DNA of 64,000 nt. Source: a virus. Below, in pieces: positions 8,592 to 53,619 of this stretch (position 1 is the stretch's first letter; each line of letters starts with the position of its first letter). Both the position numbers and the translations under genes were made by a program. Location: positions 1-64,000 of the IMG/VR virus record IMGVR_UViG_3300028045_000012. One strand, written 5' to 3'. Below the pieces are notes generated by a model. The model worked only from the letters and a program-made list of their open reading frames with translations. It was not told where the DNA came from and did not search any database.

Positions 8592-9335
8592 TTATTTATT
8601 AAAAGAATCTTTTATTTCTCTATCATTAAAATTTTCTATATCACTTTGTCTAAGTATATATTCTTCTTCCTCTTCACCACCACCAATATCATACCCTTCT
8701 TTTTCTTCCCAATATTCTGGTAGACTTACGTTGTATGGAAATGAATCCATTGACCTCATTTCTAATTTTTCTAAAGGTGTGGGGTTTCTTTTCTCAAATT
8801 CTTTTTCTAAGTCATCAATCTTAACGATTAAATCATCCATACTGGAAACTTGACTTTCTAAGTCCCCGAATTTAGATAATAGACTATCCATCTTAGTACT
8901 AACGTGATCTACAGAATTTTTTGTTTCTTCAGTCTTATCAACTATATCAGTAACATCAACTTCAACGGTGTCACCCTCAGGTTCTATCGCAAATTCATCT
9001 TCTATACCAACGTCACCACCCATACCTAAAAATGGGTCATCTAAAACATCATCTTCTACGGGAAGTTCATCACCCATATCTGGTAGTGGTTCTTCACCAC
9101 CTTCGGCACCTAAACCTTCTAAGTCTCCGAATGGATTATCACCACCTTCAGGGGTTTCCCCTTCCATGTCTATAGGTTCTTCTTCATCACCTGGGGGGTC
9201 TTGTTCAGTTATCATATCATCTAATAATAATTCACCATTTAAATCATCATCATCTTTTTTTTCTGAATAGAAGTTATATTCTAAAAGTTGTTTATGTCTT
9301 TTTAACTCTTCTAATAAATTTTTTTTATTTCTCAT
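8592..9335 (-). CDS. Acidic protein with [L]-x-E leader; candidate head-interior protein
   Basis: The 247-residue product starts MRNKKNLLEELKRHKQLL, a short basic amphipathic segment with an L-L-E-E core like thirteen other proteins of this window. The middle, about residues 25-130, is extremely rich in Asp, Glu, Gly and Pro. It is followed by a coiled-coil-like stretch (residues about 130-185, containing TKMDSLLSKFGDLESQVSSM) and another acidic patch (GGGEEEEEY). The acidic, low-complexity composition plus coiled coil resembles phage scaffold or prohead-core proteins and internal head proteins, but this is an inference from composition. It is preceded by a 60-residue gene one base away and ends at a strong terminator. 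Confidence 0.8.
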   Translation of the reverse strand: MRNKKNLLEELKRHKQLLEYNFYSEKKDDDDLNGELLLDDMITEQDPPGDEEEPIDMEGETPEGGDNPFGDLEGLGAEGGEEPLPDMGDELPVEDDVLDDPFLGMGGDVGIEDEFAIEPEGDTVEVDVTDIVDKTEETKNSVDHVSTKMDSLLSKFGDLESQVSSMDDLIVKIDDLEKEFEKRNPTPLEKLEMRSMDSFPYNVSLPEYWEEKEGYDIGGGEEEEEYILRQSDIENFNDREIKDSFNK

Positions 9336-9336
9336 A

Positions 9337-9519
9337 TTACATTAATAGTTGTCTACCATCATTAGTTTTATAGATCTTATTTACTCTTTCTACAATTTCT
9401 TTACCATCATTTATTAAACATTCATCACCAATACATTCTTCTTTGTTAATCCCACCTAAGAAATCATTTAATTTATCATCTAATGTTTCTTTTTCTTTTT
9501 TACTATCTTTATTTTCCAT
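9337..9519 (-). CDS. Small hypothetical acidic/basic protein (60 aa)
   Basis: A 60-residue, highly charged protein with a Lys/Glu-rich N-terminus and the small Cys-containing motif CIGDEC near residues 29-34. It lies 1 base upstream of the acidic leader protein and has a TATTTAT-type candidate promoter 12 bases upstream, so it is probably the first gene of a two-gene late transcript. Function unknown. Confidence 0.7.
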   Translation of the reverse strand: MENKDSKKEKETLDDKLNDFLGGINKEECIGDECLINDGKEIVERVNKIYKTNDGRQLLM

Positions 9520-9530
9520 AATTTTATTTA

Positions 9531-9546
9531 TATATAAATATAATAA
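9531..9546 (-). promoter_or_regulatory. Candidate late promoter motif
   Basis: Read on the minus strand this is TTATTATATTTATATA, the recurrent TATTTAT-centred motif found upstream of structural and leader genes. It ends 12 bases before the ATG of the 60-residue gene. Confidence 0.4.
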
Positions 9547-9548
9547 TT

Positions 9549-9950
9549 TTAAGAAAAATTCCTTTTTATGTCTAATATTTTTAATTCTTTTGAAAAAATA
9601 ATTATAAAATTATTTTGATAATCATCCCAATTTATATTGAAATCTGAATAATTAACATTTCCGGATTGTACATCATATAAACTTTCTATTAATTTATTTA
9701 ATGCGTTTATAGTATAAAAACATTCACCTTTTTTATGTACTATTATTGTTGGTGGGAAAAAAGAATTTATATCTACTTTTTGGTCTTCATCTAATTTTAA
9801 CCTAAAAGTTAATATAACTTTATTAGGTTCACCATAATCGTATTCAAAAATGTTTTTTATGTGGATATCAAATCTTTTATTTAAATATTTCTTAAAAGAT
9901 TCTATTTTGTCATTATAAACAAAAGATGCCAAAGTTATCATTCTACCCAT
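9549..9950 (-). CDS. Hypothetical protein
   Basis: An unrecognised 133-residue protein with alternating hydrophobic and charged residues and no obvious motif, signal peptide or membrane segment. Its start overlaps the end of the upstream 200-residue gene by 8 bases, which implies cotranscription and translational coupling. By position, between virion genes on both sides, a role in tail or head assembly is possible, but nothing in the sequence proves it. Confidence 0.7.
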   Translation of the reverse strand: MGRMITLASFVYNDKIESFKKYLNKRFDIHIKNIFEYDYGEPNKVILTFRLKLDEDQKVDINSFFPPTIIVHKKGECFYTINALNKLIESLYDVQSGNVNYSDFNINWDDYQNNFIIIFSKELKILDIKRNFS

Positions 9951-10545
9951 TTAATTCGATATTAACAACATAAGGGATTAATCTTTTTTTATCTTTTATT
10001 TTTATTACAAAATCCCTTCTATTATTAAATATCTCATTATCTACAAAAACATTATTTTTTAATTTATGTATTTTAGATATTACTTTTTCTTTTTTACCTT
10101 CAAAAAATTCTAATATATTTAAATCTACCCCAAAAATTATATTTTCACAAAAAATATATATCATACCATTTTTATCCAAATATGTTATTGGAGATTCCAA
10201 TGATAATATTTTTTTTATAATCCTATAATTAATTCTTTTTTTACCATAAAGAATATCTAAATAAACATAAGGAATGTTTTCACCAAAATTAGTGAAACAA
10301 TATTCTTTAAAATTTTCTATGTCTTCATCGTACTCTACTTTTCTCTCTTTCTTATTAAAAGTCCAAAAAATCCTGGAATTTATTTTTTTATGTAAAATTG
10401 ATACTGTATTACCATATATAGTTTTAACTTTTTTCCACCCTATTATTAAAGTAGGTAAAGTTTCATCTATCCCTTCTAAAGTAGGACAAATTTTAAAATT
10501 TTCTATATCTAAATTTTGTTTTGTTATTATATTTCCTATATACAT
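9943..10545 (-). CDS. Hypothetical protein
   Basis: An unrecognised 200-residue, Lys/Ile/Asn-rich protein starting MYIGNIITKQNLDIENF. It appears soluble, with beta-strand-like alternation in the second half (ITYLDKNGMIYIFCENIIFGVDL). It overlaps the 133-residue gene downstream by 8 bases. The upstream neighbour ends 59 bases earlier, with a weak terminator-like hairpin in between, so these two genes may form their own small unit. Confidence 0.7.
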   Translation of the reverse strand: MYIGNIITKQNLDIENFKICPTLEGIDETLPTLIIGWKKVKTIYGNTVSILHKKINSRIFWTFNKKERKVEYDEDIENFKEYCFTNFGENIPYVYLDILYGKKRINYRIIKKILSLESPITYLDKNGMIYIFCENIIFGVDLNILEFFEGKKEKVISKIHKLKNNVFVDNEIFNNRRDFVIKIKDKKRLIPYVVNIELNG

Positions 10546-10552
10546 AATACAA

Positions 10553-10591
10553 TATTATAAAAAAAATAATGCCTTATCAAATATTAATAAG
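10553..10591 (-). terminator. Possible weak terminator
   Basis: On the minus strand, CTTAT at 10591-10587 pairs with ATAAG at 10577-10573 around a 9-base loop. A T-rich run (10568-10553) follows, just after the stop of the gene at 10605-11603. The stem is short and A/T-rich, so this is only a candidate. Confidence 0.3.
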
Positions 10592-10604
10592 ATTAAATTA
10601 TTAA

Positions 10605-11603
10605 TTAAGGGTTAAAATAATTAATTAATGGGACATTAGAATCGTCTTTTTTGTATGTAAATGTGTTTAAAACTTTCTCAAAAACTTCAAAAGATTTTTG
10701 AATGGTTTTACCATCGGTATTTAATTGTTGACATATTTCCACAGTTTTTGATAAAACCGCCCCGTTCCCATCTGACTTACTTACATAATCAAAACAACTC
10801 ATATCTACACTATCCTTGATTTCTTTCCATACCTTTATCGAATTTGTAAATAAACTATCTTGAGAAGATGTTATTTGATCAGGTTTACTTAAACCATTAA
10901 TCACTAAATCTTTATATTGTTTTCTACCTATAATATATAAATACCCTCTAGGTCTATACCTATATTCGTCACCATCTAAAATATTAAAATATTTATCCTG
11001 GGATAAATTATGATTATCATTTGGTGTAAATGATAAATCATCTGATGTACTTGTACTTGAAGAAAATATTGGTTGTATTGTTAAATATTCCTCTACAGGG
11101 GTGTCTGTTACAATAGAGTTTGTTTCTTTTGTAGATGCAGTATAAATAGGTAATACATTATCACTACGTGTAATATCCCCATAATAAAGGTTATTATTGG
11201 TATTACTAATTTTATTAGGTACTTCACCTACTATATTCCAAGGTAATTCCTTTTCTACTAAATTATTTGACTGTACTAAAACATTTGTTAAAAACATAGT
11301 AACTTGACTATTTGTAGTTAATTCTTGATTTTTCATGACTTCTTTTAAATTTGTTAGTTTTAAAGTCTCACTAACACCAAGACTTTTAAAATTAACCTCA
11401 GTAAAATTATTATCAAAATCAAAGTCTTTATCAGGATCATTAACGCCAATACTAAAAATAGGGTTACCACTTTTTAAATTAGTAAACACAATTTTTGGTA
11501 TTTCACTACTTTCATTTAAATCTATATCTAAACTAGTTGTTATATCTTCTATTGGTGGTGTTATAAATTTAGATTGTCTTAATCCTTGAAAACTTGTTGT
11601 CAT
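10605..11603 (-). CDS. Putative virion (baseplate-region) protein
   Basis: An unrecognised 332-residue protein starting MTTSFQGLRQSKFITPPIED, rich in Ser, Thr, Asn and Asp, as are the neighbouring structural proteins. The C-terminal half contains a tyrosine-rich segment (DEYRYRPRGYLYIIGRKQY) and a helical stretch. It lies 23 bases downstream of the 1442-residue baseplate protein and is the last gene of the unit that includes the gp53-like protein, so a baseplate or tail role is likely from context. Confidence 0.65.
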   Translation of the reverse strand: MTTSFQGLRQSKFITPPIEDITTSLDIDLNESSEIPKIVFTNLKSGNPIFSIGVNDPDKDFDFDNNFTEVNFKSLGVSETLKLTNLKEVMKNQELTTNSQVTMFLTNVLVQSNNLVEKELPWNIVGEVPNKISNTNNNLYYGDITRSDNVLPIYTASTKETNSIVTDTPVEEYLTIQPIFSSSTSTSDDLSFTPNDNHNLSQDKYFNILDGDEYRYRPRGYLYIIGRKQYKDLVINGLSKPDQITSSQDSLFTNSIKVWKEIKDSVDMSCFDYVSKSDGNGAVLSKTVEICQQLNTDGKTIQKSFEVFEKVLNTFTYKKDDSNVPLINYFNP

Positions 11604-11626
11604 ATGATTAGGTGAAATACTATGAT

Positions 11627-14600
11627 TTACATTAGTATAAGATACGCCCCATTAAAAAATGGTACATTTTGTAAATCAAAATACATTAATGGTTGTATAT
11701 TCATACATCCTAAAGATTCCACTTGACAAGTATATGATCTTGTTTTAAACAACCTTAATAAATTCGTACCCTGGTAAGTTCTTTGGGTACTCCCTCTTTT
11801 ATCAACTAAGTCTGATAATGTTCTAAAATATTCGGCAGTTTCTTTATGTTCCTGTTGATTTAATGAAACACTTTTAAATATTGTTTGGTTTTGGGCACCA
11901 AAGGCAACCCTAAAGGCAACTAAAGAAAAATTACTATTTGTTATATCTTTTACTGGGTTACTATCATCAACCATGTCTGGTGGTATTAGACTACCATTTT
12001 TAAATGTGAATCCATCATCTTTAAAATAATAATTATTTCTTTCTCCAATATCTAAAACTTGTGAATTACCACCTGCGTATATACAACAATAAATTGGTGC
12101 AGAAGAAACATTACTCTCTATTGTTGTTTGTGGTTTAAATATTTTAGATACTTCTTCTACATCTTTATAATTTATATAGTTTGGTAAAATTTGTAATAGA
12201 AAATTACTATCTCTTAATAATTTACTCATGAAAAAATATAAACTAACATTTAAATCACTACCTAAACTTAAAAAACTTTTTAAATTGAAAACTGCCTTTG
12301 AACCTATATCATTCCAACCTCTATCAATAAATTTAAAATAATCTATTAAGTCTCTTCCTTGTCCACCACATATATTAAATGGTTTTTCTGTATCTGAAAT
12401 CCATTTATCATTTATATTTTTAAAATAATTATAAAGTTGTAATTTTATCTTTAAATTATTTTTTTCTTTTTTTTCTTCATTTTGACTATTAGAATTAGTA
12501 TTAACAGTCTCTGTTTCACTATTTAGTACACTATATAACCCTCCAATATATTTATTGATATCATCAAAAGTTATAGATAAATTATTATTCTCTTTTGTGG
12601 GGTTAAAAATATTAGGGTCTAATATAATAAAATCAGTAGTGTCTTTAACCTGGTCTAATATTATTTTTTTTGACGATTGTATTTTTTTTTCATCAACACC
12701 TTCACTAATTATAAATAAATTACCTTCAAAAATACCTGTAAAATCTTTATTAAAATTTCCACTAACCCAATTTTTAAATTGATTAATAAACTCTATTTTA
12801 ACACTTTTAGGTAATGATGTTAAATTATCTTCAATAGAAATATCATTATTTCCAGTTAAATACCCAAATTTAGTAAAATATTTGTTTTTATCTGTTCTAA
12901 AACTATCATAAGAAACTCCGTTAAATGTACCAAAATTTATACTCCCAGTTACATTTTCTTCTAATCTCCATAATAAACCACCAATATAATAAACATATAA
13001 ACTAGGTAGTTTTACTATTCTGGAATTATTAAAATTATTACCCTCAAATACTGGATCAATAAATCCAGTTTTAAATATTTCAAAAGGTAATGTACTTAAA
13101 CATAGAAGACCTCTTGATAAATTACTTGGTTGGTTTCTATAAAATAAACCTTTAACCAAATTTTCTTCGTATTCAGTTGTACCAATAGTCTTAAATTCAG
13201 TTTTATTAATATGTGGTTCTATTGACTCATACGTTAAATTTTTTAATATATCCAAAGATAATTTAGTATTATCTTTTAATAATGTATTACTCACAGAATC
13301 TTTAAATACATTAATTAAATTATTAGTAACAATATTATTAGTAGAATCATATTCAGTAGAAATTTTATCACTTGTAGAACCCGGACTATTTTTTTTGTTA
13401 CTGTACACATCACTATCTATTATTGATTGTAATAAATTTTTAGTATTTGTGGTTACACCTTTATTGTTAAACAAGACATAATCATTACTTTCATTATCAT
13501 AATCCCCACCTATTTTTACACCATCAAAATCAAAAGAGTTATCTTTTAATGTAATATAAGTATTACTAATATTAATACTTTTATTAAATTTAATATCAGA
13601 TAAAATCTTACCTATTTCAGTGTTGTTACTACTATCTGTAAAAACTTTTAAAATATTTTCTATTAATAACCTAGTTTGATTACCAATAACAATATTATCA
13701 ACCATTAACCCATCAAGTTTACCATAACTATTTAATTTACTAATAAAGGGATCTTTAAATCTTGAATAATTCTTTAATAACATTAATCTTGTTATTATTG
13801 TTTTATATAATTCATTTTTTATAGTATCTTTATCGTTTCCTACATTAAAATTAATAAAAGGGTTAATATCATAATCTATTGGGTTTATTGGGAACCAATT
13901 ATCACTATCCAAACCATTCCTTAAAATACTCGCCCTTGTAATTTCCCTTAAGTTTTCTTTTTTATTAACTAATTTGTCAAAAACATTTTCAACAAAATCA
14001 TATTCTGGGAAAACACTTCTATTAACATTATTAACCTCACCTATATAAATTTCTTCTTCAGAAGAATTTCCATTTTCTATATAAATTGATGGCCACGCCA
14101 CACCTTTAGTAGAAGTACTATTATTTATTTTTTCTTGTATAGAGTTTGGTATATCTGTACTATAATTTTTTAAAATATTACCCCTGTCTTTTATAATTCC
14201 TTCTTCTTCTGATTTTACAGTTATATCAGAAATTGTTTCAATCATTGCCTGTGTATTATTGGCCAATATTTCAAAACAAGATTTTATTGTTGGATTAAAC
14301 CCAGTCTCTTTTTTAAAATTTTCTACTAATTCTACATTGATTTCTTCTTCAACTTTCTCCCTTTGTTTTTTTATCGTAGATTCTAAATCTTTTATTGAGT
14401 CTTCAACTAAAACTCTTTGTTCTCTAAAATCTACTACCATAACAACTGTTTCAGGAGTAAAATTATCATTATAATATTCTTTAGTATTTATTGTATTTTT
14501 AAAATTCTCAATTGAGAAATTTTTATTAACATCACCATCATCATAATTTTTTGTTAACGATAATACATCGTCATTACTACTAAATTTAGTTAAAATATTT

Positions 14601-16268: not shown

Positions 16269-16275
16269 AATAATT

Positions 16276-23579: not shown

Positions 23580-25652
23580 TTATGTAGAAATGGGGATTAA
23601 ACTATGTGAAATAGTAATCATTGGGTTATCAATCACTTCTACAGGATCTATACTGTATGCCATTTCATCATCTTTTACTTGAGTAGGATCCCCTTGTTCT
23701 TTTTTATTATCAAAGTTTTGTTGGTGTTTATTATCATTTTTTGTACAATGTATTTCCACAAGTTCTTTGTATTTTTCCGTATCTCTTTTAAATTTATTTA
23801 TTTTTTCATTAGTAAATGGGTTTTCCAAAGGAGTCTGATTAAAGGCCATATCCATTATTTTGAGTAACCTTTTTGATTTATTTTCTATAAAAAATTCATT
23901 TAAAGTATCAATATCAGTTAATAAGGTTGTATATTTGTCATCACATAATATCTTCATATTAGGGTTTTCCTTTTTCAACTCTGTTATAATAGTATTAAAT
24001 TCTTTTTTTTCTACAAGGGCACTAAACTTATCTATGTTACCTTTAATGTCATTAACCAGTGTATTACAAATACATTTTTCTGGTTTTTTGTCTTTACAAT
24101 TTATTTTTTTACAAGCCAAGTCTAATCCAAAGACACCACCTTCCCATACACCTGATAAGAATTTCTGAATAATGGATAGATAATCCTCTATCCTTAAAAA
24201 AACCTTAATAGGGTTTATTAAGGGGAATTTTTTTTCGTTATATAACTCATCTTCTTTGTATTGAATTATATTTGCGAATATATAACTATATATAAGAGCC
24301 TCCCTTCCAAGTTTTGTACCCTCTCCAAGAAGTCTCAACCCACCTTCTAATGAGTTAAGTTCTACACCATTTCTTAATTTTTTCCAAAGTTCTCTATTTA
24401 AAAACAAAGAATGGTACTTACCACCATCCGGTATCTTGTCTAGCAACCCTTTAGGATTTCCAATAGATGTTGACAATACTTTTTTTAACATTTTAAGGGG
24501 TATATTGATTAATACATAAGAAGTCTTAGGGAATAAACTTCTAGGTACTGTAGAAATATATTTAAGTATACCTATTTCATTTTCATTTGTTACTTTACCA
24601 ACAACTTTACTATATTCTTTCGGAAGATTTTTTGTTTCTTCAAGGTCAAATTTTAATTTTCCTGTTGTTTCATCTATTTTTACAACCCATTTTTCTATAC
24701 TATCTACTAGTTTTATTTTTTTACCCTCTTTAACTAATAAAATACCACCATTATTAATTAAGTTATCATATATTGTATCATAATTAACACCCTTACTTGT
24801 TTTAGTAAAATCTTTATTTAAGTTTGTGAATAAGGGTTTTATTTTTTTTGCGATTTCTTCTTTATTAGCCTTTATATAAAAAGGTTCACTTGTTTTTACA
24901 ATAAAATTATTAATTAATTTAGGGGTAACCTTTAATCCTTCCTTATTAAGTGTTTTATGTTTAAAATGGTGTTTAAAAATATTTTCAATTTCTTTTTTTT
25001 GTTTTTCAATAAATTCGGGTCTTAAACCAGAGGTATCATCAAGTTTATTGTAATGTTTAATTAAATCTTCTGTGTATGCATTTTTTTTAAAATTATCAGA
25101 TATTAAATTAAATAAAGGTGGATTACCTTTATATAATGTTATATATAATTTATAACCATCAGGACTAAGTTTCTTTATTTCATCAAAATCTATATCGTAA
25201 CTATCAACTTTTCTTTTAACAAATTTTCTTGGTTGTTCAAGTATAATTTCCATTAATGATTGAAACTCTTCAATTTGTTTTTTAGTAGCCTGTTTCCATA
25301 ACCGATTTCCATCTGTTTTTAATGCATTCACAAAATCTTGACTTTTTAAAACTGTTAACAAATCTTCTGGATTATCAATTTTATATTTGTCTATTCCTAG
25401 TTTTTTTGTTGCCTTTCTATTTTTAAAAAAATTACTTAATTTAGTAGTTTTAGTTTTACCAAGTGCCTTAATAAACTTCTTAATAGGTTGTTCCATTAAT
25501 AAGTTATTGGGTAAAAATTGTGATAAAAATTCCCATTCTAAAACTAAATTATTTTTTTCTTCGTTTTTATCTACTAAATTACCATAAAGTCTTTCATTAT
25601 TAAATAATGATTTCATTCTATTAATTTCTTCGTTTATGTTTTTATATTTCAT
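23580..25652 (-). CDS. Leader-bearing protein of unknown function (690 aa)
   Basis: Starts MKYKNINEEINRMKSLFNNE, with the same pattern as the 359-residue peptidoglycan-binding protein (LNEELNRMKSLF) including the RLYGNL that follows in both. The rest is unrecognised: a long Lys/Glu/Leu-rich soluble protein with helices, a short Cys-rich stretch near residues 507-525 (ACKKINCKDKKPEKCICN) that might bind a metal, and an acidic C-terminus. The leader suggests packaging in the phage head. It is followed by the gp26-like gene 38 bases later. Confidence 0.75.
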   Translation of the reverse strand: MKYKNINEEINRMKSLFNNERLYGNLVDKNEEKNNLVLEWEFLSQFLPNNLLMEQPIKKFIKALGKTKTTKLSNFFKNRKATKKLGIDKYKIDNPEDLLTVLKSQDFVNALKTDGNRLWKQATKKQIEEFQSLMEIILEQPRKFVKRKVDSYDIDFDEIKKLSPDGYKLYITLYKGNPPLFNLISDNFKKNAYTEDLIKHYNKLDDTSGLRPEFIEKQKKEIENIFKHHFKHKTLNKEGLKVTPKLINNFIVKTSEPFYIKANKEEIAKKIKPLFTNLNKDFTKTSKGVNYDTIYDNLINNGGILLVKEGKKIKLVDSIEKWVVKIDETTGKLKFDLEETKNLPKEYSKVVGKVTNENEIGILKYISTVPRSLFPKTSYVLINIPLKMLKKVLSTSIGNPKGLLDKIPDGGKYHSLFLNRELWKKLRNGVELNSLEGGLRLLGEGTKLGREALIYSYIFANIIQYKEDELYNEKKFPLINPIKVFLRIEDYLSIIQKFLSGVWEGGVFGLDLACKKINCKDKKPEKCICNTLVNDIKGNIDKFSALVEKKEFNTIITELKKENPNMKILCDDKYTTLLTDIDTLNEFFIENKSKRLLKIMDMAFNQTPLENPFTNEKINKFKRDTEKYKELVEIHCTKNDNKHQQNFDNKKEQGDPTQVKDDEMAYSIDPVEVIDNPMITISHSLIPIST

Positions 25653-25683: not shown

Positions 25684-26334
25684 TCATAACCCTATTAATT
25701 TCGTTATATCATTTAAACCTACATTTCCTTTAGTTTTCGTATTAAATGTTGTTTTATCTAAAAAGAAATCCAAAAAATTACTATATTTAACACATGTATT
25801 AGAGTCATTATCAAAAGTAAAACATGCCTTACTACTTGAGTTTTTAATCACATCTTTATCTTTATTTATTAAACTATTATTCTCTTTATAACCTTTATAT
25901 TTCATAGAATTTAATGTAAGGGTATTACCATCACATTGATATTTACCAACATAAAGCAATTTATCGTCCTTATTAGTTGGGGATGTTAAGTATGTATACA
26001 CATATTGGTTGTCAGAATAAAAAGTGAAATGGTATTTAGGTACACCATCTTGTAGTTTGTTACTTTTAATTAATAAATAACATACTGTTTCGTTTTTATA
26101 AAAATCAATGGTGATATTTTTTGTATTCGCACCACTACTAATTAAAATATTATTCACACATTTTATAGTTTCATTAGTTAAACAGTTACTACTAACGTTT
26201 TGTGGTGAATAAACAGTATACTTTCTATCTCTTAAGTCCTCTGCACACTTATCTGAATCAGGTCCACATTGTTCATTAATATTCATTAATGATTTTATTT
26301 TTTTTATTTCTTCAAGGAATAATTTTTTTTTCAT
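25684..26334 (-). CDS. Leader-bearing protein of unknown function (216 aa)
   Basis: Begins MKKKLFLEEIKKIKSLMNIN, an L-F-L-E-E leader aligned with the E-E-x-x-x-x-K-S-L of the 690- and 359-residue proteins. It contains eight cysteines, an unusually high number for its neighbours (CGPDSDKC, SNCL, KCVN, CYLL and later single Cys). Together with the Asn/Thr-rich beta-type composition, this suggests a compact disulfide-rich or metal-binding domain. Function unknown. The gene lies between the 484- and 690-residue leader proteins in the same transcript. Confidence 0.75.
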   Translation of the reverse strand: MKKKLFLEEIKKIKSLMNINEQCGPDSDKCAEDLRDRKYTVYSPQNVSSNCLTNETIKCVNNILISSGANTKNITIDFYKNETVCYLLIKSNKLQDGVPKYHFTFYSDNQYVYTYLTSPTNKDDKLLYVGKYQCDGNTLTLNSMKYKGYKENNSLINKDKDVIKNSSSKACFTFDNDSNTCVKYSNFLDFFLDKTTFNTKTKGNVGLNDITKLIGL

Positions 26335-26358: not shown

Positions 26359-27813
26359 TTAATACATCATTGTATCACCGTACCTATTGTAGTTAAATGT
26401 ATCTTTTTTATTATTATTATAAACTTTTTTCGCATAGGGACTTTCTGCGTTTTTTAGACATTCTTCTTTCTCTTCTTTTAGTGATTCTATATAAAATTCA
26501 GGTTCTACCTTTTGTATTGATTTAATAAATATTTCCCAATATTGTTCTAAAGTTTTTTGACCTAGTGTACCATTTTTTAATGTTTTACACATATCTAATT
26601 TAGTTATATCACTAATTACATTCCCTTCATCATCAAGTAATTTTTTAAAAATCAAACCCTTTTTATAACATTCTTTAATCGCATTTATTGATGGGCAATC
26701 TAGGATTGGGTTACCATCTACACCTATACAATCCTCATTTCCAAAAATGACCATGTAATTTTCAAGTATCTGTTCACCATGTTTTTCTATAATTTCTAAT
26801 AGAACTTCATCTTCAATTTCATCCTTATCGAATAAACTCATTATGGAAGATACTATTTTTGTTGCAACTTGTATTGTTATACCTAAACCAAGAAAAGCCG
26901 CACCCTGCCACTTTATTGTATTAATTGATTTAGGAATTTCATATTTACTTATGTATTTAAAATCTTTCACAAATCGTCCCGCAGAATTAAAATGTTTTTT
27001 TATAACATTAAGAAAATTATAATTATTATCTTCTAAAAGTTTAATAAATCTAGGTGTCTGTATTACTTGATAAAAATATTTTTTATCTATACCTCTACTC
27101 ATTATAATTTTATTTAATACCTCATCATAGTTTTTAACTTTTTTACTTGTTTCTCTTATGGTATCAAAATATTTTTTTAATTCTTTAGCGTCTTTAGGTT
27201 TTAAATTTTTTGAGTGTTTAGCTATTATCTTTTTCCATACTTCTTGTGGTAATTGATTTATATTTTTCCCTACAGTTTTATGTACTTCTTTAATAATATT
27301 ATCACCTGCTTTTAAAACATTTTTATTTAACTTTTTAAGTGCATTTATTTCAGTAAATCCTGGTATAACACCTAATCCAGAAAATAAGGATGAAAGACCA
27401 TATTTCCCAGCCTCACCCCATTTACCTTGTGTAAGGGCACCAATCCCTTTAACCCCATAAGATACAAAATTAACAAAATCTAATATACTTGATGCCGCAG
27501 TACCAAAAACCGGTACAAAACTTACAGCTATAGATATGTTTTCTATCATACAATTCCAAAAATCTTTTTCTTCCCACACATCTTTATCCCAACAATTAAA
27601 ACCACTAGCTAATTCTGTTAAAAAAGATAAATTAATGTCAGGCCCCCATACCATTTCATTATAATTTTTAATATCAATAGTGCTATAGGGGTCACCACCC
27701 ATAGCCTTAATATTTCTATCTCTAATACCATATACAATATCTGCAATATGATCAGGTTTCCCTTGTTCTAAAAACAATCTATTATATTGTGATTCAGTTA
27801 TTATTATTCTCAT
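26359..27813 (-). CDS. Leader-bearing protein with pretoxin-like hydrophobic region (484 aa)
   Basis: Starts MRIIITESQYNRLFLEQG, the I-T-E-S variant of the shared leader also seen at 52229-52591. Residues about 90-165 are Gly/Ala/Val-rich (VSFVPVFGTAASSILDFVNF and WGEAGKYGLSSLFSGLGVIPG), with spacing like the pretoxin (PT-TG/PT-VENN-adjacent) hydrophobic segment found before toxin domains in polymorphic toxins. A second hydrophobic segment (AAFLGLGITIQVATKIVSSI) lies near residue 310. The C-terminal third is charged and contains a few Cys. Both hydrophobic stretches could enter a membrane. The toxin analogy is inferred from composition; no nuclease or protease motif is visible. Confidence 0.75.
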   Translation of the reverse strand: MRIIITESQYNRLFLEQGKPDHIADIVYGIRDRNIKAMGGDPYSTIDIKNYNEMVWGPDINLSFLTELASGFNCWDKDVWEEKDFWNCMIENISIAVSFVPVFGTAASSILDFVNFVSYGVKGIGALTQGKWGEAGKYGLSSLFSGLGVIPGFTEINALKKLNKNVLKAGDNIIKEVHKTVGKNINQLPQEVWKKIIAKHSKNLKPKDAKELKKYFDTIRETSKKVKNYDEVLNKIIMSRGIDKKYFYQVIQTPRFIKLLEDNNYNFLNVIKKHFNSAGRFVKDFKYISKYEIPKSINTIKWQGAAFLGLGITIQVATKIVSSIMSLFDKDEIEDEVLLEIIEKHGEQILENYMVIFGNEDCIGVDGNPILDCPSINAIKECYKKGLIFKKLLDDEGNVISDITKLDMCKTLKNGTLGQKTLEQYWEIFIKSIQKVEPEFYIESLKEEKEECLKNAESPYAKKVYNNNKKDTFNYNRYGDTMMY

Positions 27814-27955
27814 TTTTCATCTTTTTTGTTTCTTCCATATACATATTAACTTCATCTTTTAAAATATCAATACTTTCTTTATCGTTAATATCATAAATGT
27901 CAATAATTTTTATTATTTCATATATTCTATCTGTTATTTCGTCTATTCTATCCAT
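27794..27955 (-). CDS. Small hypothetical protein between leader genes (53 aa)
   Basis: An ATG at 27955 overlaps the TAA of the upstream 359-residue gene as TAATG. The frame gives 53 residues (MDRIDEITDRIYEIIKIIDI...) and ends at a TGA 20 bases inside the next gene. Overlap with both neighbours argues for a real, coupled gene. The helical, acidic, Ile-rich N-terminus looks like a coiled coil. Function unknown; it lacks the shared leader. Confidence 0.6.
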   Translation of the reverse strand: MDRIDEITDRIYEIIKIIDIYDINDKESIDILKDEVNMYMEETKKMKNENNNN

Positions 27956-30330: not shown

Positions 30331-30343
30331 TTTTTTTATTTTT
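30254..30343 (-). repeat. Duplicated leader cassette, copy 1
   Basis: About 90 bases nearly identical to 30724-30813. The repeat covers the first ~26 codons and the short untranslated stretch before the ATG of the gene at 29827-30330. Confidence 0.85.
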
Positions 30344-32090: not shown

Positions 32091-32102
32091 AATTTTTATC
32101 TA

Positions 32103-32717: not shown

Positions 32718-32723
32718 AATTTT

Positions 32724-33194
32724 TTATCTTCTATCATCAATATAACCATCAGATTCTTCAAAATATATTACATTACCTTTATCATTATATTCCCTTTTCA
32801 CCCAATAACCAGAAGAATCTTCATAATATATTATATTACCCTTATCATCATTTTCCCTTTTCTCCCAATAACCATTAGAACGTTTAAAATATATCAGATT
32901 ACCATTATCATCATATTCCCATTTCACCCAATAACCATTATCATCTTCATCATATACCCTTTTATCGTTATTATCATTGTAGATATATCTCCTGAGTTCT
33001 TCATAAAAGTAGATATCATAACCATATATCTTCTTCATTATATATAACTGATCGTCCTTATCATATATGGTTAATCCTTCCATTGATTTAAAATAAGGTA
33101 AATCAACATGATCAGATATTATATCTAATCTACGATAATGTTTTTCAGATTTATTTATTTCTTCCCTTAATATTTTACGTATTAATTTTTTCAT
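32724..33194 (-). CDS. 21-residue-repeat (YD/MORN-like) leader protein, copy 3
   Basis: A 156-residue protein starting MKKLIRKILREEINKSEKHY. The pre-repeat domain (RLDIISDHVDLPYF, then GLTIYDKDDQLYIMKKIYG) is closer to the copy at 52618-53133 than to copies 1 and 2. About four repeats follow (EYDDNGNLIYFKRSNGYW and variants) and the end is DDRR. It is the first gene of this cluster after the sheath terminator and has its own late-type motif. Confidence 0.8.
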   Translation of the reverse strand: MKKLIRKILREEINKSEKHYRRLDIISDHVDLPYFKSMEGLTIYDKDDQLYIMKKIYGYDIYFYEELRRYIYNDNNDKRVYDEDDNGYWVKWEYDDNGNLIYFKRSNGYWEKRENDDKGNIIYYEDSSGYWVKREYNDKGNVIYFEESDGYIDDRR

Positions 33195-36424: not shown

Positions 36425-37336
36425 TCACCAATCTACTAATGTGTTTGTTGCAGATTTAAACCCAAAATTATATAATTTTCTTAATTTTGTGGGGTTTGTA
36501 TCGTATAATTCTTTTATGATATAAGGTATAAATATTTGTTTATTTTTTATTGTTCTTTTTTCCCTACCAGATATTAATTCTAATAAGTATTTTTCTTCTA
36601 TTTCATCTTTTTTACTTATTTCTATTGCATCTATATCAGTAAGTCTTGTAAATACACTTATCATATTATGATCTGACCAATCACTATCTAATATATGTTC
36701 ATAATTTTGTGGTCTTGCGAAAACTGAAATGACTTCTGTTATATTTGAAATGTTTTCTAACATCCAAGGTGATAATATATGGTTCCTAACACCACCATCA
36801 TATAAAATCATATTTTTAAAATGTACCCCCTCAACTGCCAATGGTATACTCGCAGAGGCGTTAATTAATAGTAAAAAATCATCATAACTATATTTTTTAT
36901 CTTTAATGTTTATTATGAATCTACTACCAGTTTTAAAATCTACTGAACCAATCCATACATTGGGGAACTCACCTTCTTGATACCTTATAAAATCTTCCTT
37001 AGATACTATTCTACTAATAGTTAATGGTAGATTATTTTGAGTGCCAAAAGAAGATCTCCCAAATAACGCCCTAAACTTAGCAGTAATACTTATTTTGTTT
37101 TTTTTATTAATAGGGATACTATCAAATATATCGTCAATGGTAAATATTTGTGTGAATTCTCTAAGTATATCCCATTTACGTAAGGCAATTGGTATACCTA
37201 AAATACCCCCAGAACTTATACCACTAATGTCTGTAGGTCTATAACCTAAAACATTAAATATATAATCACATGCACCGGCAAGACCAGAGATCTTTGTTCC
37301 TGCCCCTGATAAGTTAAGTATTTTTCTATTTTCCAA
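36425..37336 (-). CDS. Patatin-like phospholipase
   Basis: A 303-residue protein with the three patatin landmarks: the oxyanion-hole glycines in LSGAGTKISGL (9-19), the nucleophile elbow G39-I-S41-S-G43, and the D180-G-G of the catalytic dyad (YDGGVRNH). The S-x-S-x-P-L-A-V-E-G segment before the DGG also fits. It should hydrolyse acyl esters of phospholipids. No signal peptide or transmembrane segment is obvious, so it probably acts in the infected cytoplasm, on the inner face of the membrane, or in lysis. It could also be an anti-defence or virion enzyme. Its neighbours do not decide the role. Confidence 0.85.
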   Translation of the reverse strand: MENRKILNLSGAGTKISGLAGACDYIFNVLGYRPTDISGISSGGILGIPIALRKWDILREFTQIFTIDDIFDSIPINKKNKISITAKFRALFGRSSFGTQNNLPLTISRIVSKEDFIRYQEGEFPNVWIGSVDFKTGSRFIINIKDKKYSYDDFLLLINASASIPLAVEGVHFKNMILYDGGVRNHILSPWMLENISNITEVISVFARPQNYEHILDSDWSDHNMISVFTRLTDIDAIEISKKDEIEEKYLLELISGREKRTIKNKQIFIPYIIKELYDTNPTKLRKLYNFGFKSATNTLVDW

Positions 37337-44351: not shown

Positions 44352-44352
44352 A

Positions 44353-48524: not shown

Positions 48525-48526
48525 AG

Positions 48527-49048: not shown

Positions 49049-49054
49049 AATCTT

Positions 49055-49070
49055 TTATAGATAAATATTT
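49055..49070 (-). promoter_or_regulatory. Candidate late promoter motif in divergent gap
   Basis: On the minus strand AAATATTTATCTATAA, 6 bases before the ATG at 49048. On the plus-strand (helicase) side of the same gap, 49071-49103, no such motif is seen. Confidence 0.4.
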
Positions 49071-49103
49071 CTTTTTAAGAAAAAAATTGTTATTATTATA
49101 ATT

Positions 49104-52007
49104 ATGTTAGATTTAAAAGATATTAATAATTTAAATAGTGAAACTTTATTAGAAAGTTATAAAGGTAAAAACCCTTACATAGTTTACATGAAAAAAAAAT
49201 TATGTGAGGATAAGAAATATATTTTAACTAATAATCAATTAAGTTATGTAAGAAAATATTATAATTTTGAACCTAAAGAACTTAATAAAGTAATAGAATT
49301 AACAAATTATTTTAGTGAAGAACTAAAAGAAAAATACAAATTAAAATCCCCACCTAAAAAAATATTAATAGAAACATTATTGGCAGAATCTGATAAGGCA
49401 ATGCATGTTTTATGTAAATTTTATCAAAACCAAAAAGGTGTTAAATTAGTATGGATCCCAAAAACACAATTATTAGATGACATATATTATGAGGAAATCA
49501 ATGTAGATGTAGATTTTGACTATTATCAAAGAATAGATAAAAGAGGTTGGAAGGCATTTAAACATCAAGAAGAAGGGATTAAATTTTTATTGAAAAATAA
49601 AAAGTGTATTTTGGCCGATGATATGGGACTTGGGAAATGTTTAGAGGTTGATGAATTGGTGTACACACCAAATGGTTTAATAAGGATTGGTGACATTAAA
49701 ATAGGTGATTATGTAATTGGGTCTAATGGTAAAAAAACTAAAGTACTTAGTGTATACCCACAAAAAAATAAGAAAAAAATATTTAAAATAACTTTTAATG
49801 ATGGTTATAGTCTATTAGTTACTGAAGATCATTTATGGGATGTTATGAGTTGTAACAACTCAAATAATAGAAATAATGGTAGAAATAAAAGACATTTATT
49901 GTTAACCACAAAACAAATGTTAGATGGTAATGGTGAAGTAGAGATTAAAGGTAGTGGTTCTAATAAAAATAGAGTTTATAAAGTAAAAACATATTATAAA
50001 CAAAAAAATGGTACATTAAAATGGCAAATACCGTTACTAAGTGAACCTATTCATTTTGAAAATAAGAAAAAATTATTAATAGATCCTTATTTATTAGGAG
50101 TTTGTCTTGGCGATGGACATATAAAAGAAAAATCTGTAAGACTTGAAGTTCATAAAGATGATTTTGAAGAAATTTTTAAAGGACAAATAATAAAAGAGAA
50201 TAAGTCAAAACCTAATACAAGGAGATGTACTATTAAGGTAGGTGAATCAATTAAAAAATTAAAATTAAATAATAGTAGATCATATAATAAATTTATACCT
50301 AATGTTTATAAATATTCTTCTATTAAAAATAGGTTGTCTATACTTCAAGGTCTGATGGATACAGATGGACATTGTTGTAAACCAATAGATGGTAATTTTC
50401 GTGGTACAAAATTCTGTTCTATTTCTGAAAAACTAGTTGATGATGTTGCAGAAATTGTACATAGTTTAGGTGGTATAGTGAAAAAAAATAGTTGGATACC
50501 TACATATACGTATAAAAATGAAAAGAAAAAAGGTAAGAGGGCGTATTCTTTATACATTAAATTACCTGATGGAATGAATCCTTTTAGACTGAAAAGAAAG
50601 TCTAATTTATATAATTCTCCTAAAAAATATAAAGTTGGTAGATATATAAAAAGTATTGATTATGTAAGAGAAGGTGATTCTGTATGTATCTCTGTTGATT
50701 CTGATGATCACTTATTTGTTGCAAAACATGGTATAGTTACACATAACACATACCAGTCAATAACTGCATCATTAGAAAGTGATGCGAATAGAATATTAGT
50801 AGTTTGTCCTTCATCATTAAAAATAAATTGGATGAGAGAAATAGAAAATTTCACTGATGATGTGTCAATAATAAATGGATCACATTGGGACCCTTCCCGG
50901 TTTACTATAATAAATTATGAAATATTAAAAAAATTCCATACAATAAAAGAAAAAAATAAAGAATATGAGGACTGGGAACTTAGGAGAGAGATTGTTGAAT
51001 ATAATCCAGATATAATAATATTAGACGAGGCACATTATGTTAAAAACCATAAAAGTAATAGGGGTAAAATAATAATAGATATCGTGAAAAATTATGGTAC
51101 TGAGAAGGTATGGTTGTTAACTGGGACACCTATTGCAAATAGACCTATGGATTACTATAACCTTTTATCAATTATAGATTCACCTGTTACAAATAATTGG
51201 GTACATTTTGCAAAAACATATTGTGAAGGTAAAAGGTTTAGAAAAGGTAAAAAATATATATGGGTAACTAAGGGGGCATCTAATCTTGAGGAATTGTCTG
51301 CAAAAACAAGAAAAACTATATTACGTAGGAAAAAGGAAGATGTGTTAGATTTACCTGAAAAATTAGTAACACCAGTTTATTTAGAACTTAAAAATGTTGA
51401 CCAATATAAAAGTGTGTGGGATGATTATCTATTAAAACGTAAAGAAGAAGGGAAAAGGGGGAATCCTGCAAGGGATTTAGTAGAAATGACTTTATTGCGA
51501 ACATTTATTTCTATGGAAACTGTACCGTATTCAATAGAAAAGGCAGAAGAGGCTTTAGAATTAGGTAAAAAAGTTATAATATTTTGTAATTTTAATGATG
51601 AAATGGATGCATTTATAACTCATTTTGGTGATAAATCTGTTTGTGTAAGGGGTGGAATGAGTAATAAACAAAAACAAATTTCTGTTGATAAATTTCAAGA
51701 AGATAAAAATTGTATGGTTTTTATTGGTCAAATAAAGGCTGCGGGTGTTGGTTTAACACTAACAGAGGGTGAAATTGTTATTATGAATTCTTTAGATTGG
51801 GTTCCTGGTACACATGAACAGGCAGAAGATAGGGCATATAGGATAGGACAAAACAAAACTGTTAATATTTATTATATGTTAATAGATAAAACTATTGACA
51901 CATTGATTTGGAAAATTTTACAAAATAAAAAGAAAATCATTGGAACTATAATAGGTGAAGATGAAATTATAACAGAATTTATAAATGAAACAAAAAATGA
52001 AAGTTAA
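49104..52007 (+). CDS. SNF2-family DNA helicase interrupted by an intein
   Basis: A 967-residue precursor. Extein N (1-178) ends in the Walker A of SF2 motif I (ADDMGLGK) and extein C (549-967) resumes TYQSITA. Helicase motifs are DEAH at about 640 (ILDEAHYVKN), GTPIANRP, and the SNF2 C-terminal signature AEDRAYRIGQNKTVNIYYML. The spliced protein would be about 597 residues, in the range of small SNF2/HARP-like helicases or UvsW-type repair and branch-migration enzymes; exact T4 equivalence is not clear. It is on the plus strand, with a glutaredoxin-like gene overlapping its 3' end by 23 bases. Confidence 0.9.
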   Translation: MLDLKDINNLNSETLLESYKGKNPYIVYMKKKLCEDKKYILTNNQLSYVRKYYNFEPKELNKVIELTNYFSEELKEKYKLKSPPKKILIETLLAESDKAMHVLCKFYQNQKGVKLVWIPKTQLLDDIYYEEINVDVDFDYYQRIDKRGWKAFKHQEEGIKFLLKNKKCILADDMGLGKCLEVDELVYTPNGLIRIGDIKIGDYVIGSNGKKTKVLSVYPQKNKKKIFKITFNDGYSLLVTEDHLWDVMSCNNSNNRNNGRNKRHLLLTTKQMLDGNGEVEIKGSGSNKNRVYKVKTYYKQKNGTLKWQIPLLSEPIHFENKKKLLIDPYLLGVCLGDGHIKEKSVRLEVHKDDFEEIFKGQIIKENKSKPNTRRCTIKVGESIKKLKLNNSRSYNKFIPNVYKYSSIKNRLSILQGLMDTDGHCCKPIDGNFRGTKFCSISEKLVDDVAEIVHSLGGIVKKNSWIPTYTYKNEKKKGKRAYSLYIKLPDGMNPFRLKRKSNLYNSPKKYKVGRYIKSIDYVREGDSVCISVDSDDHLFVAKHGIVTHNTYQSITASLESDANRILVVCPSSLKINWMREIENFTDDVSIINGSHWDPSRFTIINYEILKKFHTIKEKNKEYEDWELRREIVEYNPDIIILDEAHYVKNHKSNRGKIIIDIVKNYGTEKVWLLTGTPIANRPMDYYNLLSIIDSPVTNNWVHFAKTYCEGKRFRKGKKYIWVTKGASNLEELSAKTRKTILRRKKEDVLDLPEKLVTPVYLELKNVDQYKSVWDDYLLKRKEEGKRGNPARDLVEMTLLRTFISMETVPYSIEKAEEALELGKKVIIFCNFNDEMDAFITHFGDKSVCVRGGMSNKQKQISVDKFQEDKNCMVFIGQIKAAGVGLTLTEGEIVIMNSLDWVPGTHEQAEDRAYRIGQNKTVNIYYMLIDKTIDTLIWKILQNKKKIIGTIIGEDEIITEFINETKNES
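49638..50747 (+). other. Intein with LAGLIDADG homing endonuclease
   Basis: A 370-residue insertion with Cys1 (CLEVDELVYTPNG, block A), TEDHLWD (block B-type H), LGVCLGDGHI and LQGLMDTDGHC (two LAGLIDADG-like blocks), and a C-terminal VAKHGIVTHN ending in Asn, with Thr as the first extein residue. All splicing residues are present. It inserts in the conserved GLGK^T nucleotide-binding loop, so splicing is required for helicase function. Confidence 0.95.
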
Positions 52008-52254
52008 AGTATTTTCTATGAAGGGTTGTTCACATTGTGATGAATTAAAAAAACAGTTAAATGAAAATAAAATAAATTTCATTGAATTGGATGTTGATGA
52101 ACATGAAGAGTTATATGAAAGTTTTTCAAAAAAAGTGGAGAATGAATTTTTACCTGCAATTATTATAGGTAAGACAGTATTTGTCCCTAATAAGTCATTT
52201 AAAACTATAACTGAGGCGGTGGGACATGTTAAAACTCACCTGTTGGGGCCTTAG
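51985..52254 (+). CDS. Glutaredoxin / thioredoxin-like protein
   Basis: An 89-residue protein with the C15-S-H-C18 redox pair in VFSMKGCSHCDELKKQL, a strand (INFIELDVDE), and LPAIIIGKTVFVPN with the cis-Pro usual in glutaredoxins. A second ATG at 51997 (MKVKVFSMKG) may be the true start, since the helicase stop lies at 52007. It could reduce the class II ribonucleotide reductase encoded at 1.7-3.5 kb or other phage proteins. It ends 26 bases inside the minus-strand leader gene, so these two are convergent and overlap. Confidence 0.85.
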   Translation: MKQKMKVKVFSMKGCSHCDELKKQLNENKINFIELDVDEHEELYESFSKKVENEFLPAIIIGKTVFVPNKSFKTITEAVGHVKTHLLGP

Positions 52255-52591
52255 GACCATCACCATTAAGGTTAAAATTTTGGTTATCTACATCATGTTT
52301 ATCAATCATATTACCTAAAACATTAATGATATTATCAAATCTATCATCTTTTTTAGTGGAATACCCTAGTTGTCTACCACCATTACTTAAAAGAGATAAT
52401 CTTACTTCATCTAAGACTTTTTTTATTTCATCATTTTCTACATATTGTAACGCAGATTCAATATATCTTAAACCATTCACTAAACTTTCCATACCTTTAT
52501 GTGATAATGAAATTGCGATTTCATCTTTAGATTTATTTTTACCTTCTTTTAAAATTTTTTTAAGTTGACTTTCTGTTATAATAATTTTCAT
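52229..52591 (-). CDS. Leader-bearing small protein (120 aa)
   Basis: Starts MKIIITESQLKKILKEGKNK, closely matching the I-T-E-S leader of the 484-residue protein at 26.4 kb. The body is helical and charged (KGMESLVNGLRYIESALQYV) and the C-terminus is Asn/Gly/Pro-rich. Function unknown. Its end overlaps the end of the glutaredoxin gene on the other strand by 26 bases. The upstream gene, a 21-residue-repeat protein, ends 26 bases earlier. Confidence 0.75.
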   Translation of the reverse strand: MKIIITESQLKKILKEGKNKSKDEIAISLSHKGMESLVNGLRYIESALQYVENDEIKKVLDEVRLSLLSNGGRQLGYSTKKDDRFDNIINVLGNMIDKHDVDNQNFNLNGDGPKAPTGEF

Positions 52592-52617
52592 ATTGTTTAT
52601 TTTTTTTTTTGTAAGTA

Positions 52618-53133
52618 TTATCTATTATCATTTATATATCCTTCATCATAATTAAACATATTACCATTATTATCATACTCATATTTCCTCCAATAACCAT
52701 CAGAATTTTCATAATATATCACACTATCCTTATTATTATATTCCCATTTCCACCATCTACCCCTAGAATTTTCAGAATTTATTCTATTACCCCTATCATC
52801 ATAATCACCTTTCTCCCAAAACCCATCAGAATCTTCATAATATATTCTATTACCCTTATCATCATATTCAAATTTCTCCCACCAACCACTAGAATTTTCT
52901 AGATATATCAGATAACCCTTATCATCATAGAAATATTCCCCATCAATACTTACATCATTACCCAATATCTTTTTCATTATATATTCCTGATCACCCTTTT
53001 CATATATGGTTAAACCTTCCATTGATCTTAAATAAGGTAAATGAACATGGTCAGATATTATATCTAATCTACGATAATGTCTATCAGATTTATCTATTTC
53101 CTCTCTTAATATTTTTTTTATTAATCTCTTCAT
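52618..53133 (-). CDS. 21-residue-repeat (YD/MORN-like) leader protein, copy 4
   Basis: A 171-residue protein starting MKRLIKKILREEIDKSDRHY, with the pre-repeat domain of copy 3 (RLDIISDHVHLPYL, GLTIYEKGDQEYIMKKILG), then about five 21-residue repeats (EYDDKGNRIYYEDSDGFW type) and a C-terminal DNR. Located 20 kb from the first cluster, so the family has been copied or moved between two sites in the genome. Confidence 0.8.
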   Translation of the reverse strand: MKRLIKKILREEIDKSDRHYRRLDIISDHVHLPYLRSMEGLTIYEKGDQEYIMKKILGNDVSIDGEYFYDDKGYLIYLENSSGWWEKFEYDDKGNRIYYEDSDGFWEKGDYDDRGNRINSENSRGRWWKWEYNNKDSVIYYENSDGYWRKYEYDNNGNMFNYDEGYINDNR

Positions 53134-53139
53134 AATTTT

Positions 53140-53619
53140 TTATCTTCTATCCCATATATCACCATCAGAATCTTCAGTATATATCTTATTACCCCTATCA
53201 TCATATTCCCATTTCCTCCAATAACCATAAGAATTTTCATTATATATCATATTATCCTTATCATCATATTTAAATCTACCCCAAAACCCATCAGAACGTT
53301 CATAATATATCATATCACCCTTATCATCGTAGATATATACCCTGAGTCCTGTTTTGACAATAGATATATTACCATATATTTTACTTAATATATATTCCTG
53401 TTCTTCTTCAGTTAATTCAAGAACATTAAATATATTAAAATATGGTGGACCATATTCCTTAAAATAACCAAACAACAAATCTATTAAATCATAACCCTGA
53501 CCTTCAGATAGATATTTAACCATTTCAATATTTTCATCTTGTCCAGAATTAAGAAGATTAAATAAGTTATCTTTAAATTCTTTATGTTCCCTTAGTATTC
53601 GTTTAATTAATTTTTTCAT
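53140..53619 (-). CDS. 21-residue-repeat (YD/MORN-like) leader protein, copy 5
   Basis: A 159-residue protein starting MKKLIKRILREHKEFKDNLF. The leader lacks the second Glu, and the N-terminal domain (residues about 20-90) is different from the other copies except for EEEQEYILSKIYG. About three repeats (KYDDKDNMIYNENSYGYW type) follow, ending DRR. It is the first gene of this minus-strand unit and has a late-type motif upstream. Confidence 0.8.
   Translation of the reverse strand: MKKLIKRILREHKEFKDNLFNLLNSGQDENIEMVKYLSEGQGYDLIDLLFGYFKEYGPPYFNIFNVLELTEEEQEYILSKIYGNISIVKTGLRVYIYDDKGDMIYYERSDGFWGRFKYDDKDNMIYNENSYGYWRKWEYDDRGNKIYTEDSDGDIWDRR

Follow-up and report, generated by a model that had tools for sequence, protein, structure and literature searches.

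Leader genes in the window

The stretch of DNA analysed here (the window) covers 64 kilobases (kb) of the 65.6 kb linear IMG/VR virus record IMGVR_UViG_3300028045_000012, with a G+C content of 28% and the majority of its genes on the minus strand. Homology to Flavobacterium phage vB_FspM_immuto (hereafter immuto) identifies a DnaB-type helicase, a 5'-3' exonuclease, UvsX/RecA and a single-strand binding protein, together with tail and neck genes for a gp26-like hub, a gp19 tube, a gp18 sheath and a neck protein; judging by these genes, the window is a fragment of a T4-superfamily myophage. The present report concerns fourteen genes of this fragment whose products begin with a short leader containing the motif [LI]xE, a candidate signal for packaging into the phage head.

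The original prediction had proposed that these fourteen genes share one leader. The set itself was confirmed: all fourteen lie on the minus strand with coordinates and N-termini as predicted, and each has [LI]xE at least once in its first 31 residues. The single leader was not, at least five classes being found instead. Naming each gene by its first coordinate, these are class A (MKIIITESQxxxIL; 26359 and 52229), class B (LNEEIxRMKSLFxEERLYGN; 23580, 27955 and, more weakly, 25684), class C (MKKLI(K/R)(K/R)ILRE; 31533, 32103, 32724, 52618 and 53140), class D (KNGKVIxLNESDLKRI; 30818) and a fifth type, MIRRPWETKRNLILES (29827 and 30336). The same leaders recur on many genes across at least 80 related loci obtained from a scan with gp19, and profile hidden Markov models (HMMs) were built from these relatives, with the window excluded, for classes A (23 seeds), B (18), C (30) and D (8). 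They match 10 of the 54 open reading frames (ORFs) in the window, all among the fourteen genes; 29827, 30336 and 8592 match none of the four, and 53140, at 7.1 bits, misses the cut-off of 8.

Among the class A genes, 26359 (26359-27813; 484 aa; leader MRIIITESQYNRLFLEQ; HMM A, 26.0 bits) belongs to a body family of variable large proteins, with homologues in the relatives G001, G002, G010, L005 and L007; its best phmmer match in the PDB reached only E 0.024, and its AlphaFold model, with a predicted local distance difference test (pLDDT) score of 40, was unusable. The second, 52229 (52229-52591; 120 aa), has the leader MKIIITESQLKKILKE (22.4 bits). In class B, 23580 (23580-25652; 690 aa; MKYKNINEEINRMKSLFNNERLYGN; HMM B, 31.7 bits) has an orphan body, no relatives being confirmed in viral contigs, while 27955 (27955-28989; 344 aa; MKKIPKNLNEELNRMKSLFTEERLYGN; 40.3 bits) contains a peptidoglycan-binding domain (PF01471, E 2.1e-12) and begins MKKIPKNLNEELNRMKSLF when read from an inner ATG at 28989 of an ORF that runs to 29034. 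The weaker class B leader of 25684 (25684-26334; 216 aa; MKKKLFLEEIKKIKSLMNINEQ; 15.0 bits) heads a body with homologues in G010 and L002, which also bear class B leaders.

The class C proteins are five paralogues with RHS/YD-like DxxGNxIYxExSxGYW repeats, located at two sites approximately 20 kb apart (31533-33194 and 52618-53619). The first, 31533 (31533-32090; 185 aa; MKKLIKRILREE; HMM C, 8.8 bits), matches RHS_repeat PF05593 only at E 0.042, under the curated cut-off; the others are 32103 (32103-32717; 204 aa; MKKLIRKILREE; 14.5 bits), whose body is 60% identical to that of 31533, 32724 (32724-33194; 156 aa; likewise MKKLIRKILREE; 15.0 bits), 52618 (52618-53133; 171 aa; MKRLIKKILREE; 12.1 bits) and the below-threshold 53140 (53140-53619; 159 aa; MKKLIKRILREH). 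Class D is represented by 30818 (30818-31249; 143 aa; MKIKKNGKVIVLNESDLKRI; HMM D, 11.4 bits). The fifth type heads 29827 (29827-30330; 167 aa; MIRRPWETKRNLILESNMRILGES) and 30336 (30336-30800; 154 aa; MIRRPWETKRNLILESNKRILGES); the membership of 30336 is backed by leader exchange on its body, which is common to class C and D proteins of L019, and that of 29827 by the near-identity of its leader to that of 30336.

The very acidic 8592 protein (8592-9335; 247 aa; MRNKKNLLEELKRHKQLLE), which adjoins ssb, is the weakest of the fourteen members and stands apart from the leader classes. Homologues of its body in G001 and G010, 49-50% identical and also beside ssb, have the leaders LLKEELKRHMQLLE and LIKEELKRHMQLLE. 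Its composition resembles that of gp22, and it could be a core or scaffold-like protein (a second core protein) and not cargo. Pfam and PHROGs scans of ten of the fourteen proteins (all except 32103, 32724, 52618 and 53140) gave no convincing family other than the peptidoglycan-binding/endolysin match of 27955.

Confinement of leaders and motif to N-termini

As the HMM seeds were chosen by their N-terminal patterns, the real test of the models lies in matches elsewhere in proteins. At the cut-offs applied, matches starting in the first 30 residues numbered 42 of 46 for class A, 28 of 30 for B, 37 of 39 for C and 33 of 34 for D, or 140 of 149 for all four, those of A, C and D partly overlapping. 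Across 11 genomes, 80 ORFs bear an A-D leader, including 15 of 113 in the close relative G002, which G016 partly repeats. Two large proteins, at 11760-15305 of L006 (1,181 aa) and 13242-17210 of L019 (1,322 aa), have a class A start and an internal class B copy (at residues 919 and 1013, respectively), and may each represent an in-frame fusion of two cargo proteins.

The loose motif [LI]xE is common by chance, and its position was therefore tested, leaders being scored for this motif only. Of 676 non-redundant clade proteins of at least 90 aa (from ORFs called mechanically, some of them spurious), 350 have it in residues 4-32, compared with 192.7 ± 9.9 for internal windows and 236.6 ± 10.2 for shuffled sequences (200 rounds each); for window proteins of at least 90 aa the figures are 27 of 47 against 13.3 ± 2.5 internal and 19.3 shuffled N-termini (z 2.5). 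The N-terminal enrichment proposed as a check of the original prediction was thus observed for profiles and motif alike. Proteins matched by an A-D leader have the motif in 81 of 84 cases, a figure partly built in by motif-containing seeds, while unnamed proteins lacking such a match retain an N-terminal excess (363 of 823 versus 258 ± 12), so that further leader classes probably exist. A 37 kb portion of phage T4 with its head and internal protein (IP) genes also exhibits an excess (23 of 47 versus 13.8 ± 2.3). No genome-wide excess was seen in S-CREM2 or in 50 kb of HTVC008M, and it is therefore not a general property of T4-like phages.

Leaders on many ordinary proteins of the early infected cytoplasm would have spoken against packaging. 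Among homologues of 31 named immuto proteins in the 11 genomes, an A-D leader was found on 2 of 110, both matching one 907 aa immuto protein annotated as NadR-like.

Exchange of leaders and bodies

Single-linkage clustering of bodies, i.e. the part following the leader (BLASTP, E <= 1e-3), distributed 133 leader proteins of the clade over 58 clusters. The fourteen window proteins make up 10 body clusters, the class C set of five being paralogues from a single repeat family; the bodies are unrelated to the extent of ten families, though not of fourteen as initially described. More than one leader label occurs in 10 of the 24 clusters with at least two members, one of these being mixed solely through 53140 having been labelled apart.

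Class A heads the body of 52229 in the window, whereas proteins of G001, G002 and G010 with 39-46% identity to that body carry class C leaders and start with MMKRNLIKKILREE or MMERNLIKKILREE. Similarly, five proteins of L019, headed by class D or C leaders, match the 30336 body with identities of 27-43% (E 4e-8 to 2e-31), and the class D protein 30818 has its body counterpart in a class B protein of G002 (108285-108728; 37% identity, E 3e-17). Judged by these exchanges, which were checked pairwise, the tags of classes A-D and the MIRRPWET leader behave equivalently. Cargo that changes under a constant signal, as originally envisaged, is seen in the spread over 58 clusters and in 29827 and 30336, whose bodies soon become unrelated; the reverse also occurs, the signal being swapped while the body stays.

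At the DNA level, 29827 and 30336 are 97% identical over their first 60 nucleotides, 67% over the next 30 and 20-33% thereafter, and this sharp drop looks like a recent copying of the leader. Together with exact DNA copies of the class C leader in G003, the conserved 60 nucleotides would also suit a common 5' gene start, a translation or recombination element whose encoded peptide is functionless. That explanation is extremely improbable: the same leader peptide is spelled differently from gene to gene (R as AGG, AGA, CGA or CGT; L as CTT, TTA or CTA), which indicates selection on the peptide, and different peptides replace each other on one body.

Head maturation genes and probable cargo in relatives

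Of 15 long records from relatives, 7 encode a Peptidase_S77; one of them is G002, with a gp19 that shares 92% identity with the window's. The head operons of relatives run portal, gp21, gp22, gp23. Their gp21 starts with a GILVE-like motif (LLIE in T4 gp21), and their gp23, at the place where T4 is cleaved (SFLTE/AEIGG, the slash marking the cut), has INE, LTE or LNE in 7 of 8 cases examined, immuto having VSE; the region reads, in G002 and others, ...QASALLTE/ATDA or ...QASHLINE/AAS.

One type of cargo in relatives has the conserved HAD-like motifs FDWDDN, ITAR and SDDD. Despite differing leaders, 25 of the 27 distinct sequences have [LI]xE ahead of the first motif, the glutamate lying 7-14 residues ahead in the 16 that were aligned, and in the structural model (pLDDT 85) the leader forms the low-confidence end. 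The motifs suit the family and the model is of good quality, but no sequence match was found in the PDB and Foldseek returned nothing at E <= 0.001, its top rows including HAD phosphatases at E of about 0.02; 'HAD-like' is consequently as far as the assignment goes. Further cargo in relatives comprises an AAA/nucleotide-kinase-like protein, a polynucleotide-kinase or zeta-toxin-like P-loop protein and a polynucleotide-kinase/phosphatase-like protein, and a role in nucleic-acid repair or counter-defence may be guessed at.

Such P-loop and HAD-like enzymes could act in the cytoplasm, as they would if the leaders served during infection as degrons, interaction tags or tags for import into a phage compartment, and not for packaging. 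We consider this very improbable, given that leaders are absent from the named homologues involved in DNA replication and recombination, which such a compartment would be expected to take up, and that the [LI]xE of the leaders is the same as that in gp23 and gp21 of the clade.

Resemblance to the gp22 scaffold tail

In 88 loci, 69 gp22 tails were located by position and acidity, of which 52 distinct ones were used. They commonly end in LIESKTYENPQFLRMKDLMSKLK, resembling the class B leader, and commonly read LIES-KTYENPQFLRMKDLMSKLK, where cargo proteins show LNEEINRMKSLFTEE and MKDLIKKILKEE. The next-ranked matches to HMM B include C-termini, gp22 scaffolds among them. Class B-like C-terminal peptides (LTEEINKIKNLMF, EELNRIKKLMK and EEIIRIRQLM) were also noted in large proteins encoded upstream of gp19 (L023 5842-8319, L031 7515-9935 and L033 910-3282), as if the signal could sit C-terminally there, as that of gp22 would.

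An HMM of the gp22 tails places N-termini foremost: of its 43 matches with a score of at least 1, 26 are N-terminal, the first 40 residues making up 12% of all residues. N-termini account for 7, 11, 18 and 27 of the top 10, 20, 30 and 50 matches; these counts were reached by 3, 1, 1 and 0 of 500 column-permuted tails (means 2.5, 5.0, 7.5 and 12.4), although the matches are partly interrelated and the permutation counts are not clean probabilities. In immuto, the tail SEQVSRWQKLAGIIK is matched by two cargo starts of the same phage (SEQFRRMQKLAGIITES) with scores of 49 and 42, the next best being 30.

These similarities raise the idea, which we hold tentatively and would not bet on, that class B and C leaders imitate the C-terminal tail of gp22, cargo binding the site of the scaffold and being set free by the protease that also acts on it. 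From one lineage to another the scaffold tail and the leader co-vary, as the immuto example illustrates. Our caution stems from three observations: column-permuted tails also favour these N-termini, the own gp22 tail is best matched by an N-terminal leader in no more than 3 of the 9 genomes (immuto, G002 and G009), and in the window's closest relatives the similarity of the tail is lower (ITAIKDLMRKLS, with no RMK, the end being NESTAYVDPQITAIKDLMRKLS). The resemblance nonetheless puts a concrete docking mechanism on offer. If it were true, any protein could be recruited to the head by the addition of a dozen residues, and several equivalent tags would allow cargo to be shuffled without loss of packaging.

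Leaders on virion proteins of a T4-like cyanophage

For the T4-like cyanophage S-CREM2, 52 virion proteins are tabulated (Table 3, PMC10665884), and our ORF calling recovered 27 of the 28 non-structural or hypothetical and 23 of the 24 structural ones. A leader resembling the T4 capsid-targeting sequence (CTS), expressed as the pattern [MVL][KRNQ]x(0-2)[FYL]xxF[LIMF]xE within the first 45 residues, occurs in 6 of the 27 non-structural or hypothetical proteins detected there by mass spectrometry, in 0 of 23 structural proteins and in 0 of 161 undetected ORFs, and never past residue 45 in 45,807 residues. The informative part of this comparison is the absence of the pattern from undetected ORFs and internal positions. 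The six are a SAM hydrolase, an APH-like kinase, a cytidylyltransferase, a Cas9-like protein (its leader lying approximately 17 residues downstream of the start as annotated) and two hypothetical proteins; the loci of the virion enzymes (L243-L246) are at 3837-12846, 107301-108014 and 124608-125468. No discussion of an N-terminal motif was noticed in PMC10665884, the term 'N-terminal' appearing 0 times in its main text.

CTS-like ORF starts were also seen in parts (L120, L121, L247 and L248) of the huge phages LR745206 (634 kb) and LR756501 (735 kb), such as MIKKFNQFLE, MKKFTEYIKES and MIKRFNNFVKES. Starts of the K[FY]xx[FY] type occur on 21 of 138 ORFs, compared with about 2 expected from internal density, this being a loose pattern with some unconvincing matches; on the strength of these letters, the two phages may use a similar packaging tag.

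In contractile injection systems, N-terminal leaders load effectors. Leaders of the present clade might accordingly load proteins into the tail (the tube lumen, tape-measure region or baseplate), with [LI]xE being incidental: many leader genes lie amid those of the tail (in the window, around gp19, from the hub at 22768 to the sheath at 33286), and one product has a peptidoglycan-binding domain. We find this improbable. Ahead of the HAD-like body, [LI]xE is retained under differing leaders (25 of 27 proteins), leader genes of relatives also flank TerL, portal, gp21 and gp23, some leaders resemble the gp22 scaffold tail, and the S-CREM2 leader proteins include four annotated enzymes among the six and none of the 23 structural proteins recovered.

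Other features of the window

On the opposite strand, 49104-52007 (+) encodes a 967 aa protein in which a helicase-like DMGLGKC is followed by LEVDELVYTPNGLIRIGDIKIGDYVIG, resembling an intein insertion. Amid the tail genes, the protein of 36425-37336 starts with GAGTKISGLAGACDYIFN...GISSGGILGIP, which is reminiscent of patatins.

Discussion

We consider it very probable that the leaders belong to the T4 kind of capsid-targeting sequence, which would direct their proteins into the head. The original prediction, which saw a real system and interpreted it well, finds good support for this reading in the comparison with relatives, namely in the gp21 protease, the gp23 cleavage motif, the N-terminal restriction and the leader exchange, and in the published mass spectrometry of T4-like cyanophage virions (as tabulated in PMC10665884); its interpretation as a whole is partly supported.

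Several observations weigh against this interpretation. Neither Peptidase_S77 nor gp21, gp22 or gp23 was found in the window record, which is a fragment, and TerL, portal, gp21, gp22 and gp23 of G002 had no match in the window (tblastn, E 1e-4). The motif [LI]xE is weak, and named core proteins show a slight excess of it, too (34 of 84 versus 25.5 ± 4.0). Class B also occurs twice in the interior of large proteins, and two HAD-like proteins, from the 634 and 735 kb phages, start with MIKKFNQFLE and MIKKYEDYSK without [LI]xE, albeit with letters closer to the T4 CTS. A-D leaders occur on only 1 of 93 ORFs in G021 and 1 of 134 in G024, despite the presence of gp21 and gp23, and comparison with G002 marks the classes as lineage-specific. 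The class B and D consensus leaders had no tblastn match in 50,697 phage records, in a search (E up to 10) whose sensitivity is limited for such short queries. Letter for letter, the window leaders are unlike the T4 CTS, K[FY]xx[FY]-type starts being present on 2 of 54 window ORFs, neither of them a leader gene; homology to the T4 CTS is thereby less likely, while the view that the leaders work like it is not lowered. As regards S-CREM2, 21 of the 27 non-structural or hypothetical proteins listed as detected are without the pattern, and the Fisher value for these proteins versus undetected ORFs (5e-6) is optimistic, as the pattern was written after looking at the detected proteins. Finally, our searches turned up no virion data for this clade.

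In the mechanism that we propose, the short basic or amphipathic N-terminal helix would dock a protein onto the core or shell of the prohead during assembly, this being the least certain step. The gp21-type S77 protease of the phage would subsequently cut after [LI]xE, freeing the mature protein within the head; such cleavage by gp21 appears likely. The mature cargo would be packaged together with the DNA and would then probably enter the host by ejection, a step for which we have somewhat more belief than doubt. The leader classes would be interchangeable on the same cargo, with recombination moving cargo and leader.

T4 packages few internal proteins, and their tags are closely related. The clade described here has good representation among environmental contigs, and its phages appear to operate a general system for cargo, with several equivalent tags and dozens of cargo families, tags and cargo being exchanged independently, and each phage could thus carry its own set of helper proteins. 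The sequence rule predicts from the genome alone which phage proteins without annotated function ride in the particle; these would probably be delivered to the host first, and are candidate counter-defence or takeover proteins. The rule is testable on phages with published virion proteomes.

Comparison with known systems

Among the literature matches listed, none dealt with CTS-like leaders beyond T4, which is no proof of their absence. Like the present clade, S-CREM2 is a T4-like phage whose virion enzymes (known from the protein table of PMC10665884) share a leader, but its leader family is T4-like and not of the A-D classes. Immuto is a cultured T4-like relative with a head operon, gp21 and leader sets of its own (three ENKLTxN(S/A) starts and two MKKQILSEQFxRMQxLAGIITES starts), the letters of which differ from those of the clade; no virion proteome of immuto was among the literature matches listed. 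The ejection (inner body) proteins of phiKZ and SPN3US, as outlined in PMC9026906, are likewise numerous, packaged in the head and cleaved C-terminal to a glutamate; the phiKZ motif given there is S/A-x-E, whereas the window's clade has the T4-type set of gp21, gp22 and gp23.

The closest parallel is T4 itself. Its internal proteins are described as having targeting propeptides of 10-19 residues, gp21 as cutting after L/I-x-E and possibly being targeted likewise, and its relatives as diverse in cargo (PMC9026906). The CTS of IPI-IPIII and Alt and the leaders of the clade are both short N-terminal propeptides with [LI]xE on unrelated bodies, and both systems have gp21 (S77), gp22 and gp23, in the clade by way of the window's relatives. 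The clade differs from T4 in that its leader letters depart from MKTYQEFIAEA and fall into at least five classes, in that ten body families occur within one 64 kb fragment and the signal is exchanged on fixed cargo, and in that a similar peptide is present at the C-terminus in some relatives. The sequences are best read as a variant of the T4 system, one that swaps its signals as well as its cargo.

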